NCBI GenBank assembly: GCA_903873585.1
Contig: CAIQOV010000006.1
Span: forward strand, 1-64,000
DNA length: 64,000 nucleotides
Direction: 5' to 3'
Origin: an uncultured Rhodobacterales bacterium
GTDB lineage: Bacteria; Pseudomonadota; Alphaproteobacteria; Rhodobacterales; Rhodobacteraceae
Position 1 is the stretch's first letter. The number at the start of each line of letters is the position of its first letter. This document shows, piece by piece, positions 36,980-46,163 of this stretch. Both the position numbers and the translations under genes were made by a program. The notes under the pieces are model-generated. The model searched no databases. It was not told the DNA's origin and saw only the letters and a list, made by a program, of their open reading frames with translations.

Positions 36980-37967
36980 GGTTATCTTACGCAACGTTTT
37001 TAAATCCTTCGGCGCGACGCAAGCGCTGGGTGATGTCAGCATGACCATTCCAGACGGTGCTTTTGTGGTGCTTTTGGGGCCAACGGGGGCAGGTAAGACA
37101 ACCATGCTGCGCATGGTGTCTGGCTTAGACAGGCCCGATAAGGGTGACGTTTTCATCGGCGGCGCATCCATGCAGGGCCTTACCCCCGCACAGCGCAATG
37201 TGGCGATGGTGTTTCAGCAATACTCGCTTTACCCACACCTGACCGTGCGCGAAAACATGGAATTCCCGCTGAAATCGCCCCTCTTGCGCACCAAACCCGC
37301 CGAAATCGTCCGCAAAGTGGCCGAAGTGGCCGAGATTTTGCAAATCTCGCACAAGCTTGACAACAAGGCCACGGCCCTGTCGGGCGGAGAGATGCAGCGC
37401 GTGTCGATTGGGCGCGCTTTGGTGCGCAATCCGGCGGTTTATCTGATGGATGAACCGCTCAGTTCGTTGGATGCCAAACTGCGCGCCGATCTTCGGGTCG
37501 AGTTAAAGAACATTCAGGCCAATCTGGGTGCGACCTTCCTATACGTCACCCATGACCAGATCGAGGCGATGACGATGGCCACCCATGTCGGCGTGCTGGA
37601 TCGCGGGCGTTTGGTGCAATTCGGCCCCCCGCGCGAGATTTACGAAAACCCCGTCAGCCTTTATGCCGCCAGCCGCTTGGGCCAACCGCGCATCAACATC
37701 CTGCCCGCCGACCTGTTCGGCCCCGCCCCCGCAACGGCCACCCATATCGGCCTGCGCCCCGAACAGATCCGTCAGGGCGAGGGGCAAGAGGCCGTGGTCA
37801 AACGGGTGGAACATCTGGGCGACCAAACCCGCCTGCATCTGACCTTTAAGTCGCACGACCTGATCACCGTCACCAGCGCCCACACTGACCTTCAGCGCGA
37901 TGACATCGTTAAAATAACCCCGCACCGGCCCTTCTACTTTGATGCCGCCGGCACCCGCATTGCTTGA
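36972..37967 (+). CDS. Carbohydrate ABC transporter ATPase (UgpC/MalK type), copy 2
   Basis: The protein has 331 residues from ATG 36972; the frame is open further upstream but would overlap the previous gene by over 200 bases. Walker A GPTGAGKTT, VFQQYSLYPHLTV, signature LSGGEMQRVSIGRA and Walker B VYLMDEPLSSLD are intact, with a TOBE domain containing IGLRPEQIRQG. It is followed 11 bases later by the kinase gene. Confidence 0.9.
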   Translation: MAEVILRNVFKSFGATQALGDVSMTIPDGAFVVLLGPTGAGKTTMLRMVSGLDRPDKGDVFIGGASMQGLTPAQRNVAMVFQQYSLYPHLTVRENMEFPLKSPLLRTKPAEIVRKVAEVAEILQISHKLDNKATALSGGEMQRVSIGRALVRNPAVYLMDEPLSSLDAKLRADLRVELKNIQANLGATFLYVTHDQIEAMTMATHVGVLDRGRLVQFGPPREIYENPVSLYAASRLGQPRINILPADLFGPAPATATHIGLRPEQIRQGEGQEAVVKRVEHLGDQTRLHLTFKSHDLITVTSAHTDLQRDDIVKITPHRPFYFDAAGTRIA

Positions 37968-37978
37968 AAGAGAACACG

Positions 37979-39598
37979 ATGACCCAATTCATGAACAAGC
38001 GTGAGAATATCGTCACCGAGGCGATTGACGGGCTGATCATGGCCTCTGGCGGGCGATTGGCGCGGTTGGATGGCTATCCGCACATTCGCGTGGTGGTGCG
38101 CGCTGACTGGGATAAGTCGCGCGTCGCCTTGGTGTCGGGCGGCGGATCGGGGCATGAACCGGCCCACGCAGGGTTTGTTGGGGCAGGGATGCTGACAGCG
38201 GCGGTCTGCGGCGATGTGTTCGCCTCGCCCTCGGTCGATGCGGTTTTGGCGGGGATTTTGGCGGTGACGGGGCCTGCGGGCTGTTTGCTGATCGTCAAGA
38301 ACTACACCGGCGACCGTTTGAACTTTGGCCTCGCCGCCGAACGCGCCCGCGCTTTTGGGCGCAAGGTCAGCATGGTGGTGGTTGATGACGACATTGCGCT
38401 GCCTGATCTGCCCCAAGCGCGCGGCGTGGCGGGCACGTTGTTTGTGCACAAGATTGCAGGCCATCTGGCCGAAAGCGGCGCTGATCTGGCTTCTGTGACC
38501 GAAGCGGCGGAACGGGTGATTGCGGGCACAAAATCCATCGGAATGTCGCTGGATACCTGCACCGTGCCCGGATCAGCCAAGGAAAGCCGTATTGCGCCGG
38601 GCATGGCCGAGCTGGGCTTGGGCATTCACGGCGAACCGGGGGTGGAGCAGGTCAGCTTCACCAGTGCGCAGCAGGCGATGGCCGCGATGGTCGACAAACT
38701 GGCCGCGACCATGCAAGATCGCCCGCATGTGGCGCTGCTCAACAACCTTGGCGGCACATCGGTTTTGGAAATGTCGGTTCTAGCCTATGAACTGGCCAAG
38801 TCCAAACTGGGGCCGCAGATCAAATGGATGGTCGGGCCTGCCGCCATGATGACCTCGCTGGATATGCGCGGGGTATCAGTCTCGGTCTATCCTTTGACCG
38901 CAGCAGACGAGGCGGCTTTAACCGCCGCCACCCCGCTTGCCGCTTGGCCGGGGTGCCATGCCATGGGCGCTCCAAAGGTTCTGGCCTTGCCCGACGGGCT
39001 AACGCCGATCCGGCCCATCCCCTCTGCGCACCCTGTCACGCGCCAGTTTCTGACCCATTGCTGCGAAATCATGATGGGGATGGAGCATGACCTGAACGCG
39101 CTTGATGCCAAGTCGGGCGACGGCGACACAGGATCAACCCTTGCGGGGGCTGCCCGCGCATTGCTGGGCGCGATGGACCGGTTGCCTTTGGCCGATCACA
39201 CCCAACTTTACCGCGCCATCGGGCAGGAACTGAGCCAGACCATGGGCGGATCGTCGGGCGTGTTGCTTGCGATCTTCTTTGCCGCCGCAGGCGATGCAGC
39301 CTCCAGCGGGTTGACCATGCGCGACGCTTTGCGCGCCGGGCTAGAGCGGATGCAGGAAATCGGCGGCGCGCGCTTGGGCGACCGCACGATGATTGACGCG
39401 CTGCAACCCGCCCTTGACGCCTTAGAACAGGGCTTGCCTGCTGCACGGGATGCAGCGCGCGCTGGAGCGAACCATACCGCCACCCTGAAACGAGCAAAGG
39501 CGGGGCGGGCGGCCTATGTCAACGCGGGCAATCTGGAAGGCCACATCGACCCGGGTGCCGAAGCCGTCGCCCGCCTGTTCGAGGCGTTAACGGCCTAA
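37979..39598 (+). CDS. Dihydroxyacetone kinase, DhaK-DhaL fusion
   Basis: The protein has 539 residues from ATG 37979 (GAAAGAGAA upstream). The DhaK half (1-~330) has SGGGSGHEPAHAGFVGAGML and the substrate-binding His217 in GLGIHGEPG. The DhaL half (from ~350) has the Mg-ATP loop DAKSGDGDTGSTLAGAARAL and GGSSGVLLAIFF. Both catalytic halves are present, so it should phosphorylate dihydroxyacetone or a related ketose (erythrulose-type kinases share this design) with ATP. It closes the ABC operon and therefore predicts its substrate class. Confidence 0.88.
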   Translation: MTQFMNKRENIVTEAIDGLIMASGGRLARLDGYPHIRVVVRADWDKSRVALVSGGGSGHEPAHAGFVGAGMLTAAVCGDVFASPSVDAVLAGILAVTGPAGCLLIVKNYTGDRLNFGLAAERARAFGRKVSMVVVDDDIALPDLPQARGVAGTLFVHKIAGHLAESGADLASVTEAAERVIAGTKSIGMSLDTCTVPGSAKESRIAPGMAELGLGIHGEPGVEQVSFTSAQQAMAAMVDKLAATMQDRPHVALLNNLGGTSVLEMSVLAYELAKSKLGPQIKWMVGPAAMMTSLDMRGVSVSVYPLTAADEAALTAATPLAAWPGCHAMGAPKVLALPDGLTPIRPIPSAHPVTRQFLTHCCEIMMGMEHDLNALDAKSGDGDTGSTLAGAARALLGAMDRLPLADHTQLYRAIGQELSQTMGGSSGVLLAIFFAAAGDAASSGLTMRDALRAGLERMQEIGGARLGDRTMIDALQPALDALEQGLPAARDAARAGANHTATLKRAKAGRAAYVNAGNLEGHIDPGAEAVARLFEALTA

Positions 39599-39622: not shown

Positions 39623-41056
39623 CTATTGCCGCGCCAGACCGCTGTCGATGGCGTCAATCGCTTGTTCCAACTGGCGCGCCAAAGCTGGATTGCGGTTCAA
39701 GAAGTCGATGATATGGATCGATTCCAGCGATAGGGTCATGGTTTCCGCCTCGGCGACCAGATCAACGGTTGACGGCGCACCCGTGAGCAGGAAGCGGCTG
39801 ATAAAGAACTCACCAGGGCCAAAGCGTTGCAGGGTGCGCGCGTCTTCGTCCTCGCCGTGCAAAACCGACAGTTGACCCGACACGACCAAGAACAACCGCC
39901 GACACGGCGTGCCCGTTTGCAACAAACGCTCGCCCTCGTCAAACAGGCCCATTTCGGCTGCGGCCATCAGGTCAGCAAACCCGTCCGCCTCGGGTAGGAA
40001 AACACCCGTGGCACCAAGGATTTGCCGGATCTGGTCGGCGTGCAGCTTCGGTGGGCCGTTGTCGCGGTATTTGCGGTTCGCAGCGCCCGCGAATTGCAGG
40101 TTTTCGCGCAGGCATTTGTACCACAACCGGCGCAGAAAGTCGGTCGTCGCCGCCTCTCCCTCTTCGCGGGTTTGGGTGTGGATCGTCACCTCAAACGTGA
40201 TGCCATCGTCACTTAGTTCCATCAGGTCGATGTCGTGCGCCGGATCGCGCAGGATCAGATCGACCGACCCGACAGCATATTCAATCGCATCAATCGCGCG
40301 GGCAGGAGGCGTGCCGTAGCTGAATTTGACATAGATATTTTGGCCAAACACGCGGGTTGACGACGACAGCACCGTAAACCCGCCCTGCGCTAGGGCCGAG
40401 TTCGGAATGACGATCAGGCGTTCATCATCCAGCGTTTCAATCGTCACCGACCGCCAATCCATCTTGACGATCTTGCCTGACGAGGAGCCAAACTCGATCC
40501 AGTCGCCCTCGCGGAAATGGCGGCCAGACATTAGGGAAACGCCTGAAAACAGGCCCGACATCGTGTCTTGCAAGGCAAGCCCGATCACAACCGACCCAAC
40601 CCCCAAAGCCGCCATCAACGAGCCAAGATCAACCGTCCAGATTTCAGACGCCACAAAGGCCGAAGCCACCAGCACCATCACCAAACGGATCAGGTCCAAC
40701 ACCAAGCCGGGGGTGCGGGCGATGGCTTCGTTCGCCATCGGGCCAAGCCTGACCAGCAGGTTCAACCCCAACAACAAAGCGTTGATGCCCGAAATGGACA
40801 GAGCCGTTAGCACCAGCTTGGCCCCCGTGCTGTCGGGCGGCACCTCTGCCACGCGCTTGAGCAGCACGTGCAGTGCGACAAAGGGCAGAACCGACACTTG
40901 CAGCAGGTGAATCAGCTTGGCCAGTTCGGGGTAATCGTCGCGCAAGTGGCGATGCGCTTCAACCAAGGCCAAGGCCAAAACAGGATAGCCGAGCACAACC
41001 GCAAGGGTCCAAAGGGCGGTGGATTCCGAAAAAAGATCACCCACGCTTGGCCTCAT
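39623..41056 (-). CDS. MscS-type channel with C-terminal cyclic-nucleotide-binding-like domain
   Basis: The protein has 477 residues (start ATG 41056; GTG 41044 is possible), overlapping the cyclase-like gene by 20 bases. Membrane segments fill residues ~10-180. The MscS pore/beta region follows: GVGSVVIGLALQDTMSGLFSGV, REGDWIEFGSSSGKIVKMDWRSV, and LIVIPNSALAQGGF. The last ~125 residues are a cNMP-type domain (LVVSGQLSVLHGEDEDART, GEFFISRFLLTGAPSTV). The phosphate-binding-cassette Glu and Arg are replaced by Ser420 and Ser429, so ordinary cAMP/cGMP binding is doubtful. Such channels are otherwise called bCNG. Confidence 0.82.
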   Translation of the reverse strand: MRPSVGDLFSESTALWTLAVVLGYPVLALALVEAHRHLRDDYPELAKLIHLLQVSVLPFVALHVLLKRVAEVPPDSTGAKLVLTALSISGINALLLGLNLLVRLGPMANEAIARTPGLVLDLIRLVMVLVASAFVASEIWTVDLGSLMAALGVGSVVIGLALQDTMSGLFSGVSLMSGRHFREGDWIEFGSSSGKIVKMDWRSVTIETLDDERLIVIPNSALAQGGFTVLSSSTRVFGQNIYVKFSYGTPPARAIDAIEYAVGSVDLILRDPAHDIDLMELSDDGITFEVTIHTQTREEGEAATTDFLRRLWYKCLRENLQFAGAANRKYRDNGPPKLHADQIRQILGATGVFLPEADGFADLMAAAEMGLFDEGERLLQTGTPCRRLFLVVSGQLSVLHGEDEDARTLQRFGPGEFFISRFLLTGAPSTVDLVAEAETMTLSLESIHIIDFLNRNPALARQLEQAIDAIDSGLARQ

Positions 41057-43091
41057 CCTGATCATGGGCCAGCAGGGCCGCGCCCATCGCCGCACTCATG
41101 TGAATTTTCGACTCGTTGGCCGACAGCGCCAAGCGGCGCGCTTCTGATACGCATTCGCCCAGAATTTCATAGACAAACCGTTTGCGCCCCACGATGCCTG
41201 CATCCACCTCGCCATTTGACAAGCCGATGCTCAGCGTCAGGTGCAAGCCCTTGGCTTCGTTGAAGCGGCGCAGGATGCTTTGAATCTCGTCGGCAAAGGC
41301 GGCAGCGCGCTGGCGGTGATCAAGGCGCGGCGTCGACAGGCCACAGGCGGCAAGATAGGCGTCGCCGATGGTTTTGACCTTTTCCACCCCGTGGCGTTCT
41401 GCGGATTCGTCGAACAGGTCGATCAATTCGTTCAACAGGCGGATGATGTCATTGGCCGAATGATCGCGCTGGATCACATCCAGCCCCACGATCACGGCAT
41501 AGATGATGCTGACGTTTTCAAATGTGTCGGCCACAATCAACTCGCCGCCATTGAAACGGTCGGCCACGGTGTCGGGCAACACATTGCGCAGCAGTTTTTC
41601 ATATTCTGCGGTCTTGGATTCAATAATCCCGTTGCGCCGCACGATTTCTGACAACATCCCGTTAAAAGCCGTGGCAAGGGTGGCGAATTCATCGTTGCCT
41701 TTGACTGCCACCTTGAACTGCGTGTCGCCCGATTTCAGCCGTTCAACCCCCAGTTGCAGGCGCAGCAAGGGGCTGACAAAGGCGCGGGCAGAGATAAGGG
41801 CGAAGATCGTGATCGCCATGGCAATCGCCCCCGTGGCAATCAAAATCACGCGGCGCAGATCATGCAGCGGCCCAAGCGCTTCGGCCACGTCTTTTTCTGC
41901 TATAATCGCCCAGCGGTGGCCGCCAAAATCAATCGGCGCATAGGCGGACAGAACCTCTATCCCGCGATAATCGCGGATCGTATCCGCACCCGTTTCGCCA
42001 CTTTGCGCCCGTTCCACGGCAAGCGTGGCGAAATGCTGGTTCAAAACCGAATGGCCGGATCGGTCGATGGCCGCTATTTCAGCAGGTTCCACCCCTAGTT
42101 TAGCAAGCTGGTCCATATACCCCGCTTTGTCTTCGATCAGGAACCGGCTGTCAGAGCGCGCATAGCCGTCACCGCCCACCAGATAGACTTCGCCTGAGGT
42201 GCCCAAGCCTTCGTTGATCCAATCACCGCCAGAGGTGAGGGCGGCGTTCATCTCGTCAATCGACACTTGCCCGACGATGATGCCAACCCGATTTCCGTTC
42301 TGAAAAACCGGAGCCGCCAAGAAGGCCGCAGGCGCGCCGAAAGACGGGCCGTAATGGTCAAAATCGACAAAAACCACGCCGTTTTGATCGGCAGGCGCAT
42401 CGCGCACTGTGCGGAAAGCTTGTGCGAGACCAGAGTTGCGATAGGGCCCATTGGTCAGGTTCGTGGCGAAATCTATTTCTTTTTCAACGGTATATAAAAC
42501 ATCGCCCGTTTGATCGTCGATCAGGAAGATGTCGTAGAGTTTCAACTGCCGCATCATATCCAGAAAATGCGCGTGATAGGTTTTGTGAACCGCATCATAG
42601 GCATCTGGCGTGGCAGACGGGCCTTCATAAAGATCGCGCTTGCCTTGCGGGTTGGGGTTGTTCGCGATGTAGCGCTGTTGCAAGCGCAACCCTTGGGCGT
42701 CTGTCGGCAGCAATGTATCGGCTGACAGGGGCCGCCCCGCCTCGGGCAGTTGGGGCAGGATATCGGTTTGGTAAAAAGCCGTCAGATCGGCCAATTCTGC
42801 CGCCGCAGGTTGTGCAGCCAGGGCCGCCACGGCGGTGCGAAACGCGGGCAGGGCTACTTGTACCTGCCCTTGGGCCGCCAAAACCGCAAAGGCGCGTTCT
42901 TGGGAATCAAGATAGCGGATAATGTCAGCCTTCTTGGTTTCGCGCACCGCTAAAAGCTGGTCCCAAACCGCTGCGCGCAAAGCCTGATCCGACCGCACAT
43001 ACCCGATGGAACTGATGGCCAAAGCCGCAGCCAGCCCGCTGACCATCAAAAGCAGCAGCAGTTTGGAGCGTATTGAAAGCAGACTGGCCAT
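41037..43091 (-). CDS. Cache-HAMP-class III cyclase-type receptor with altered catalytic residues
   Basis: The protein has 684 residues from ATG 43091 (GAGGA upstream). A membrane anchor is at ~8-28, followed by a large periplasmic dCache-like sensor (~30-365) with a PYRNSGLAQAFR strand and VGQVSIDEMNAAL, then a second membrane segment, a HAMP linker and the cyclase domain (~520-680). The second metal Asp577 in KTIGDAYLA is kept. The first metal Asp is Val533 (YAVIVGL instead of FADIVGF, codon 41493-41495), and the transition-state Asn is Ser649 (GECVSEARRL). Activity as a normal cyclase is doubtful. It overlaps the cNMP-channel gene, its presumed partner. Confidence 0.82.
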   Translation of the reverse strand: MASLLSIRSKLLLLLMVSGLAAALAISSIGYVRSDQALRAAVWDQLLAVRETKKADIIRYLDSQERAFAVLAAQGQVQVALPAFRTAVAALAAQPAAAELADLTAFYQTDILPQLPEAGRPLSADTLLPTDAQGLRLQQRYIANNPNPQGKRDLYEGPSATPDAYDAVHKTYHAHFLDMMRQLKLYDIFLIDDQTGDVLYTVEKEIDFATNLTNGPYRNSGLAQAFRTVRDAPADQNGVVFVDFDHYGPSFGAPAAFLAAPVFQNGNRVGIIVGQVSIDEMNAALTSGGDWINEGLGTSGEVYLVGGDGYARSDSRFLIEDKAGYMDQLAKLGVEPAEIAAIDRSGHSVLNQHFATLAVERAQSGETGADTIRDYRGIEVLSAYAPIDFGGHRWAIIAEKDVAEALGPLHDLRRVILIATGAIAMAITIFALISARAFVSPLLRLQLGVERLKSGDTQFKVAVKGNDEFATLATAFNGMLSEIVRRNGIIESKTAEYEKLLRNVLPDTVADRFNGGELIVADTFENVSIIYAVIVGLDVIQRDHSANDIIRLLNELIDLFDESAERHGVEKVKTIGDAYLAACGLSTPRLDHRQRAAAFADEIQSILRRFNEAKGLHLTLSIGLSNGEVDAGIVGRKRFVYEILGECVSEARRLALSANESKIHMSAAMGAALLAHDQDEAKRG

Positions 43092-43359
43092 AGTATCCTC
43101 ACACATCAGCCCATTCGGGCAGCTCGAACCTTAATTCGCCCTGTCGTTACGACAGATGCGCTGAAGTTTCCAGATCATTGCAGCTTCAGGTAATCATAGG
43201 CTCTGCGGCCCCTTCGGGGCCAAGCCATTTGCGCCACCAGCATCCGCGCACTTGCGCTGAAAACCGCCAAGCCCGCCGCAGGCTGATCCACGGCAACGTG
43301 GGCGCTGGATGATGGGCGCATCACTTTGGCATCTAAGCAAGCAACCCGAAAGGTGCCCC

Positions 43360-45431: not shown

Positions 45432-46163
45432 TTGACACCACAGCAAACACCCTTCGCTCTAAAGTTAAGCGCTTTCGTCGCTTTATCGGGCGAGGAACTC
45501 TCGGCGCTTGACCGTCTGCACGGGCGGCGCAAGAAGTTCGCGGCGGGGCGTGATATGGTGCATCAGGGGCAGATCAACCAACCGGCCTATATCCTCGCCT
45601 CGGGGTGGGTGTGTTCTTATAAACTTTTATCGGGGGGCGGGCGGCAGATCGTCGATTTCCAGATTCCGGGCGATTTTTTGGGCCTGCGCTCGGTTCTGTT
45701 TCGCACGGCGGATCATAACATTGAGCCCGTCACCCGCGTTGAAGCCTCTGAGGTGCTGCCGAGCGACCTGTTGGACACGTTTAGCCGGACGCCGCGTCTT
45801 GCGACCGCCGTGCTTTGGGCCGCATCGCGCGACGAGGCGATGGTGGTGGAACATCTGGTTGGAATCGGGCGGCGCGATGCCAAAGAGCGCACCGCGCATT
45901 TTCTGCTAGAACTTGGCGCGCGCTTGAAGCTGGTTCAGCTTAGCACGCCCCTTGGCTATGCCTGCCCGCTGTCGCAATATATGCTGGCCGATGCGATGGG
46001 GCTAAGTGCTGTGCACGTCAACCGCGTGCTGCGCGAGTTGCGCGATGATGGCTTGGTCACGTTCCAGCACGGCAAGGTGACGATCCACGACCTTGACGGC
46101 CTTGTCACACTTGCCGATTTTGACAAAAGCTATCTCGACCACGACGGGCCTTTGCTGAAGTGA
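45432..46163 (+). CDS. Crp/Fnr-family transcriptional regulator
   Basis: The 243-residue protein starts at TTG 45432, with GAAAGGA upstream. The N-terminal cyclic-nucleotide-type sensor contains ILASGWVCSYKLLSGGGRQIVDFQIPGDFLGLRSV; no FNR-type cysteine cluster is seen, so oxygen sensing by Fe-S is unlikely. The C-terminal winged helix is GLSAVHVNRVLRELRDDGLVTFQHGKVTI (~190-220). Such proteins in this order often control stress or microaerobic genes. It abuts the convergent SDR stop with no gap. Confidence 0.87.
   Translation: MTPQQTPFALKLSAFVALSGEELSALDRLHGRRKKFAAGRDMVHQGQINQPAYILASGWVCSYKLLSGGGRQIVDFQIPGDFLGLRSVLFRTADHNIEPVTRVEASEVLPSDLLDTFSRTPRLATAVLWAASRDEAMVVEHLVGIGRRDAKERTAHFLLELGARLKLVQLSTPLGYACPLSQYMLADAMGLSAVHVNRVLRELRDDGLVTFQHGKVTIHDLDGLVTLADFDKSYLDHDGPLLK

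Follow-up and report, generated by a model that had tools for sequence, protein, structure and literature searches.

A 64,000-nucleotide stretch of an uncultured Rhodobacterales bacterium (contig CAIQOV010000006.1 of assembly GCA_903873585.1, positions 1 to 64,000; hereafter the window) carries two overlapping genes on its reverse strand, one for a receptor with the fold of a class III nucleotide cyclase and the other for an MscS-type channel with a C-terminal cyclic nucleotide-binding (CNB) domain. A cyclase next to a cyclic-nucleotide channel is the textbook pairing of a messenger's producer with its receptor. In the version described here, which recurs across several bacterial phyla, the folds and the pairing are retained while key residues are lost on both sides. 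Judging from sequence comparison, the receptor is probably, if by no wide measure, a pseudo-cyclase whose direct contact with the partner channel gates or tunes that channel. The pair is a good candidate for messenger-free coupling of a receptor to a channel, and both of its parts belong to known families. Domain-based annotation would label both proteins as parts of cyclic AMP signaling.

The gene pair and its replaced residues

The cyclase-like gene (41037..43106, reverse strand) was delimited from its open reading frame (ORF), Pfam matches, an AlphaFold2 model, and orthologues. It encodes a dCache-HAMP-class III cyclase homology protein of 684 to 689 residues, the likely start being the ATG at 43091, the same methionine as in the preliminary description of this DNA. 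A periplasmic Cache-type sensor region spans approximately residues 40 to 418 (41853..42989), its limits taken from the secondary structure of the model, and the dCache_1 match of Pfam (residues 187 to 403) scores 42.3 bits, slightly below the cut-off of 45. This is followed by a HAMP domain (residues 440 to 488, 41643..41789; PF00672, 40.8 bits) and the cyclase homology domain (residues 526 to 679, 41070..41531; Guanylate_cyc, PF00211, 112 bits), both above their cut-offs. The PF00211 match covers profile positions 3 to 156 of 183, the end of the profile being absent, while that of a canonical paired homologue (L335) reaches position 182. The single-chain AlphaFold2 model has a mean predicted local distance difference test (pLDDT) score of 82.6, and its cyclase domain has the class III fold, matching structures of Rv1625c and AC5 (7yz9 and 1azs among them) with target-normalized template modeling (TM) scores of up to 0.79 (e.g., 7yz9).

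The catalytic positions were mapped on the second PF00211 protein of the same genome (G000:C27), a canonical class III cyclase that reads D-K-D-D-N-R at six positions, which we take to serve in metal binding, specificity, and the transition state. The window protein reads V533-K573-D577-E642-S649-R653. The first metal Asp is thus Val533 (codon 41493..41495, also aligned to solved cyclases) and the second is retained as Asp577 (41361..41363); the Asp of the adenine position is replaced by Glu642; and the transition-state Asn is Ser649 (41145..41147), with the transition-state Arg retained as Arg653. A misplaced alignment of the first Asp was considered and rejected, since phmmer to solved cyclases and MAFFT agree and no conserved Asp lies nearby. 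An Asp five residues past Val533 varies among orthologues, so there is no obvious replacement for the first metal ligand. Receptor-type class III cyclases of the Cache-HAMP-cyclase kind have the same architecture and fold; the window protein differs from them in lacking the first metal Asp, the Asn, the adenine Asp, and the profile end, and in having a channel gene beside it.

The channel gene (39623..41056, reverse strand; ORF, Pfam, model, and fold matches) encodes 477 to 490 residues. Its start is set at the ATG that keeps the residue numbering of the preliminary description (41056), and the frame stays open to a GTG at 41095. The two genes overlap by 20 nucleotides (41037..41056), or by 29 if the channel starts at the ATG at 41065. 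The MscS pore helix, beta domain, and vestibule lie at residues 135 to 335 (40091..40693; Pfam, and phmmer to MscS structures) and the CNB domain at residues 385 to 469 (39689..39943; PF00027, cNMP_binding, 51.6 bits). Both MS_channel_2nd (PF00924) and cNMP_binding are above their Pfam cut-offs, and MS_channel_1st and MS_channel_3rd are below theirs. The single-chain model (pLDDT 80.4) matches MscS and CNB structures. The phosphate cassette of a canonical CNB domain presumably reads Gly-Glu ... Arg, as it does in the channel at locus L095 and others. The window cassette, FISRFLLTGAPS, aligns Ile, Ser420 (codon 39797..39799), and Ser429 (39770..39772) with the Gly, Glu, and Arg positions. The preliminary description had reported an overlap of about 20 bases, the retention of Asp577, and the substitutions at Val533, Ser649, Ser420, and Ser429, all of which the alignments and coordinates bear out.

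The bCNG channels, said to have been described by Caldwell in 2010 and Malcolm in 2012, are reportedly members of the MscS superfamily with a C-terminal CNB domain. The window channel has the same domain order, with membrane helices followed by the MscS pore and beta domain, the vestibule, and the CNB domain. It is unlike them in the replacement of the cassette Gly, Glu, and Arg, and the clade of paired channels to which it belongs, together with one further channel (L137), is wholly without the Arg. A search of the literature at the level of titles and abstracts, with most subscription journals outside it, found no description of such a pair.

Recurrence of the pair

The preliminary description had proposed the substitutions as something to be sought in orthologous pairs, and there they recur. 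Pairs were sought by likeness to the window's pair or by a profile built from 15 degenerate paired cyclases, a sampling biased toward such proteins. In all, 38 distinct pairs were gathered, the window included, in each of which a Cache-HAMP-cyclase frame precedes an MscS-CNB channel in the same orientation. This number omits L127, a contig of a congener with a partial cyclase, and L162, which is the same genome and locus as L330. In 36 pairs the genes overlap or lie within 500 bases of each other, and in two (L148 and L152) they are about 1 kilobase (kb) apart. Cyanobacteria account for 24, and the rest come from records of Proteobacteria, Actinomycetota, Verrucomicrobia, Myxococcota, and Acidobacteria. 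One of the four cyclase residues (either metal Asp, the Asn, or the Arg) or more is missing in 36 of the 38 cyclases: the first metal Asp in 30, the second in 13, the transition-state Asn in 26, and the Arg in 25. On the channel side, the cassette Arg is absent from all 38, being replaced by Ser in 30, Ala in 4, and Ile, Gly, Glu, and Met in 1 each.

The window belongs to a clade of nine pairs, the others being named in their record titles as two Burkholderiales, one Sphingomonadaceae, four Acidimicrobiia/Actinomycetota, and one Verrucomicrobia. Judged from the frames, the cyclase in all nine lies upstream on the same strand and either runs into the channel frame or stops no more than 9 bases short of it. 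The first metal Asp is absent from all nine (V, V, S, A, S, T, S, A, and S), the Asn is replaced in all nine, and the Arg in three. The second Asp, and a Lys or Arg at the Lys position, are retained throughout. In the channels of this clade the cassette Gly is replaced in all and the Glu in eight of nine, and all nine have an Arg immediately after the Glu position. Since the cyclase fold of this clade lacks a complete metal site, direct coupling is tentatively favored for it over a different ligand.

The main rival is that small-molecule signaling persists with a changed ligand, the receptor making or releasing a non-standard nucleotide or the CNB domain binding a nucleoside or some other ligand that lacks a cyclic phosphate. 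We regard this as rather unlikely, though most conceivable for the pairs that retain the cassette Glu, which number 25 of the 38 even as the Arg is replaced in all. The precedent lies in regulatory subunits of trypanosomatid protein kinase A (PKA), in which, in the portions of the source available, the cassette Arg is likewise replaced and nucleosides are bound in place of cyclic nucleotides (PMC10959531). A mutant trypanosomatid subunit (6h4g) is among the 50 fold matches listed for the channel model. However, those subunits are described there as using an extra Glu two residues past the cassette Glu (PMC10959531), a position held by Phe in the window and by Ala in the cyanobacterial GEMA cassettes, so that the paired channels lack it. 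The window's clade is also without the cassette Gly, and mostly without the Glu, and its cyclases are without the full metal site.

Two other alternatives give the cyclase fold a continuing role with nucleotides. In one, it would be a nucleotide sensor, binding ATP or GTP without turnover and informing the channel of the cell's energy state alongside the Cache signal. The positively charged residue and second Asp kept throughout the window's clade, within its best-conserved segment, fit such a role, as do four cyanobacterial cyclases (L338 to L341) that read D-K-D-D-N and have lost only the transition-state Arg. The window protein, though, has neither the first metal Asp nor the profile end, and a cyanobacterial group around L141 (8 rows) lacks the second Asp in all 8 and the Lys in 7, and we consider a pure nucleotide sensor improbable. 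A nucleotide that is bound but uncleaved would nonetheless be compatible with direct coupling, since Lys573 and Asp577 are retained.

In the other alternative, the protein would be half of a heterodimeric cyclase, lending its substrate-binding half to another cyclase in the cell that is canonical. Mammalian adenylyl cyclases and soluble guanylyl cyclases provide examples of heterodimers in which one of the halves is defective. The window protein has kept Lys573 and Arg653, and its own genome does carry a second, canonical class III cyclase. A C2-type half, which we take to be defined by retained Lys, Asp, Asn, and Arg residues of the substrate and transition-state sites, would however not have Glu642 and Ser649, and in the window's clade the Asn is gone from every member and the Arg from a third. 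Also, 15 genomes were searched for PF00211 (14 with an adjacent pair, and G797 with one adjacent and one split pair), and in three of them (G790, G792, and G794, whose assembly completeness is not reported) the paired protein is the sole match; this is suggestive of a paired protein with no class III cyclase to join. The heterodimer would, moreover, leave the altered channel unexplained, and we judge it a shade more improbable than the nucleotide sensor.

Relatives outside the pair

The survey of channels comprised 106 MscS-CNB rows, of which 40 are rows of Cache-type pairs (the duplicates L127 and L162 included) and 66 are others; the unpaired channels were drawn mainly from one class- and phylum-level sample of 42 places. 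The cassette Arg is retained in 56 of these 66, and all 9 that have another cyclase in the fetched flanks retain both the Glu and the Arg. For example, two loci (L095:3127-6575 and L209:571-3995) resemble the window in having a cyclase upstream that overlaps an MscS-CNB channel, in their case by 4 nucleotides. They differ in that the cyclase reads D-K-D-T-N-R and the cassette Glu and Arg are present, which is the ordinary producer-receptor form; the sensor part of their cyclases is untyped by Pfam and CHASE2-like by eye. Against the pattern, 10 of the 66 channels lack both the Arg and a flanking cyclase. Among these is L137, which falls inside the clade of paired channels. Its split locus (L349:1399-15857, Xenococcus) has a degenerate cyclase about 10 kb upstream, with ORFs of 208 and 3139 residues on the other strand between the two.

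A homologue of the cyclase on pSymA of Sinorhizobium meliloti covers 91% of the window protein with all six residues intact and no channel within 4.5 kb. The homologues on two rhizobial plasmids (L247 and L248) and in G472 (L280) are canonical with no channel in their fetched flanks, and G472 is the sole other full-length match to the cyclase among 299 genomes, its flanks having been fetched to 1.5 kb. At E <= 1e-40 the cyclase matches 28 plasmid records. Twenty are rhizobial (Sinorhizobium, Pararhizobium, and Ensifer), and the two inspected have canonical residues and no channel within 4.5 kb; the matches to the 8 Vibrio or Salinivibrio records end before the cyclase domain. The channel as query gave partial plasmid matches, none covering 80%. 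In the class- and phylum-level sample, 37 of the 42 places were fetched, and no Cache-type cyclase was seen in their flanks except in the window.

Order of the losses

Quick trees were built for both proteins. The channel tree holds 87 channels, leaving out, besides L127 and L162, 12 near-identical picocyanobacterial channels, L226, L208, L145, and ORFs longer than 720 residues; the cyclase tree holds 40 sequences, 38 paired and 2 unpaired canonical ones as the outgroup. The 38 paired channels and L137 form one clade with full support (100 in the Shimodaira-Hasegawa-like approximate likelihood ratio test), and the cassette Arg is absent from all 39. The cyclase tree requires no fewer than 6 changes of the first Asp and 10 of the transition-state Arg, counts that are blind to gain versus loss. 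Repeated loss is the simpler reading because the outgroup and two paired cyclases (L335 and L342) retain the residues. Several rows of this tree have long branches, and its deep order is tentative.

The preliminary description had taken the loss on both sides to suggest that the pair had moved together to a different ligand or to direct protein coupling. On the moving together the data speak otherwise, as the Arg is missing from channels that stand beside the fully canonical cyclases L335 and L342. These two pairs argue against a simultaneous loss on both sides and indicate that the change in the channel is older or independent. Loss of the cassette Arg probably preceded the decay of the enzyme or was unconnected with it, and the enzyme seems to have been eroded several times over in a clade where the channel had already lost this residue. 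Taken as a whole, the earlier interpretation is thus partly supported.

The two genes have kept company through this history. With 38 sequences each, the cyclase and channel trees have 19 of 35 splits in common, compared to a mean of 0.2 and a maximum of 2 in 200 label shuffles, and the correlation of their distances is 0.89. Both trees place the window, kin to Rhodobacteraceae by the record of the congener G013, beside L128 (Burkholderiales) and pair L130 (Burkholderiales) with L132 (Sphingomonadaceae), and both mix three phyla inside the window's clade. Such cross-taxon groupings, common to the two trees, suggest that the genes were transferred as one unit, with the caveat that the labels are those of metagenome-assembled genomes (MAGs). 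No third gene appears to travel with them: a comparison of ten orthologue loci, 25 kb of the window, and the contig of the congener turned up none that is conserved. Apart from the pair and its antisense shadows, the shared ORFs came down to a block next to the pair in the closely related Acidimicrobiia loci L129 and L131 and a few pairwise flank matches (e.g., one L139 ORF with three window ORFs, and one ORF of the congener contig with one L139 ORF).

Selection on a degenerate enzyme

The pair of the congener G013 is 91 to 97% identical to the window pair in the matched pieces. Compared with it, the cyclase-like protein has a ratio of nonsynonymous to synonymous substitution rates (dN/dS) of 0.059 overall, 0.035 in the cyclase domain (residues 526 to 689), and 0.068 in residues 1 to 420. 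The channel has 0.091 overall, 0.018 in the MscS core, and 0.102 in the CNB part. Both proteins, and the cyclase domain of the window in particular, are therefore under purifying selection. Among eight members of the clade, the window included, 63 of 140 columns are invariant in the cyclase domain (residues 526 to 665) and 98 of 380 in the Cache region, with 23 of 33 around Lys573 and Asp577 and 17 of 35 in the coiled linker, making the cyclase domain and the linker the best-conserved parts of the protein.

One could instead suppose that the pair is simply decaying in this lineage. It is present in 2 of the 16 genomes of the genus (the window's and G013) and in at least 2 of the 394 of the family, the latter by a profile search in which at most 3 candidates per genome were scored, so it is evidently dispensable. 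Its frames are open, though, the dN/dS ratios of both genes are low, and orthologues about 50 to 65% identical carry replacements at the same positions. The orthologues and the dN/dS ratios rule strongly against local decay, which the preliminary description had named as the outcome expected if orthologues proved canonical, and we consider it very improbable.

How the receptor may work its channel

In the reading we prefer, the periplasmic Cache-type domain would sense a signal, and the HAMP domain and coiled linker would relay the movement to a dimeric cyclase-fold domain. No longer making a cyclic nucleotide, this domain would act as a conformational output arm, touching the channel at its CNB domain, vestibule, or linker, and the contact would alter the opening or the tension threshold of the MscS pore. 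Adjacency, the agreeing trees, and selection that is stronger on an incomplete cyclase domain than on the sensor together favor such a physical partnership. There is a partial parallel in the algal modular rhodopsins Cop5 and Vop5, which join a sensor to a class III domain without the metal and transition-state residues (PMC7693036). They are eukaryotic light sensors, unlike the window protein, and the portions of that source available mention no paired channel (PMC7693036).

Several observations weigh against direct contact. Since Lys573, Asp577, and Arg653 are retained, weak or altered catalysis may be possible in the window protein. In the wider family, all six residues are intact in L335 and L342, and both metal Asp residues are kept in 7 of the 38 paired cyclases, all 7 cyanobacterial, so part of the family may still make a messenger. 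One cyclase (L346) is degenerate although no channel lies in its fetched flanks; loss of catalytic residues is therefore not limited to pairs. The CNB domain, with 24 of its 126 columns invariant, ranks low in conservation within the channel, which is not expected of a strong contact surface, and in the scanned loci no ORF matched by the cyclase homology, MscS, or CNB model was a fusion of cyclase and channel. Finally, members of the window's clade are mostly MAG contigs whose taxon labels are record titles, for which mis-binning is possible.

For the family as a whole, a broader proposal is plausible, if short of probable. The pairs could be a class of receptor-gated channels that is widespread and passed on horizontally. 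A membrane receptor ending in a dead cyclase would act on an MscS-type channel through direct protein contact, opening or tuning it without a second messenger. The class would have arisen from a producer-receptor pair, the channel losing the messenger first and the enzyme then repeatedly losing catalysis. If contact did replace the messenger, a sensor and a mechanosensitive-type pore would together make up a bacterial ligand-gated channel, and the pairs, which would range from canonical to dead, would document in natural steps how an enzyme becomes a scaffold.

Variants of the pair and neighboring genes

Further pairs outside the Cyanobacteria and the window's clade include those of a Polyangiaceae (L136), an Acidobacteria record (L138), Actinotalea (L149), and a Rhodobacteraceae (L139, which is G184). 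Another (L348:1-3839) is a second, divergent pair in G793, the genome of L133, with a cyclase that reads Q-R-D-A-D-R and Gly and Met in the cassette. In the cyanobacterial locus L141:1082-3679, a globin domain (PF00042, 52.7 bits) follows the degenerate cyclase domain at the C-terminus, and L144 and L148 have an extension alignable to this part. A heme sensor may thus feed the same channel in receptors of the L141 type. In two other loci (L138:3-5820 and L149:1800-7581), the channel gene lies between two overlapping degenerate cyclase-like genes, forming cyclase-channel-cyclase triplets. The globin-bearing receptors and the triplets point to a versatile sensor-to-channel unit.

In the window itself, a gene that appears by eye to be a fused dihydroxyacetone-kinase type (37964-39598) is convergent with the channel gene, the two ending 24 bases apart. 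A Crp/Fnr-like regulator, also recognized by eye (45432-46163), lies on the opposite strand, with its start some 2.3 kb upstream of the pair.

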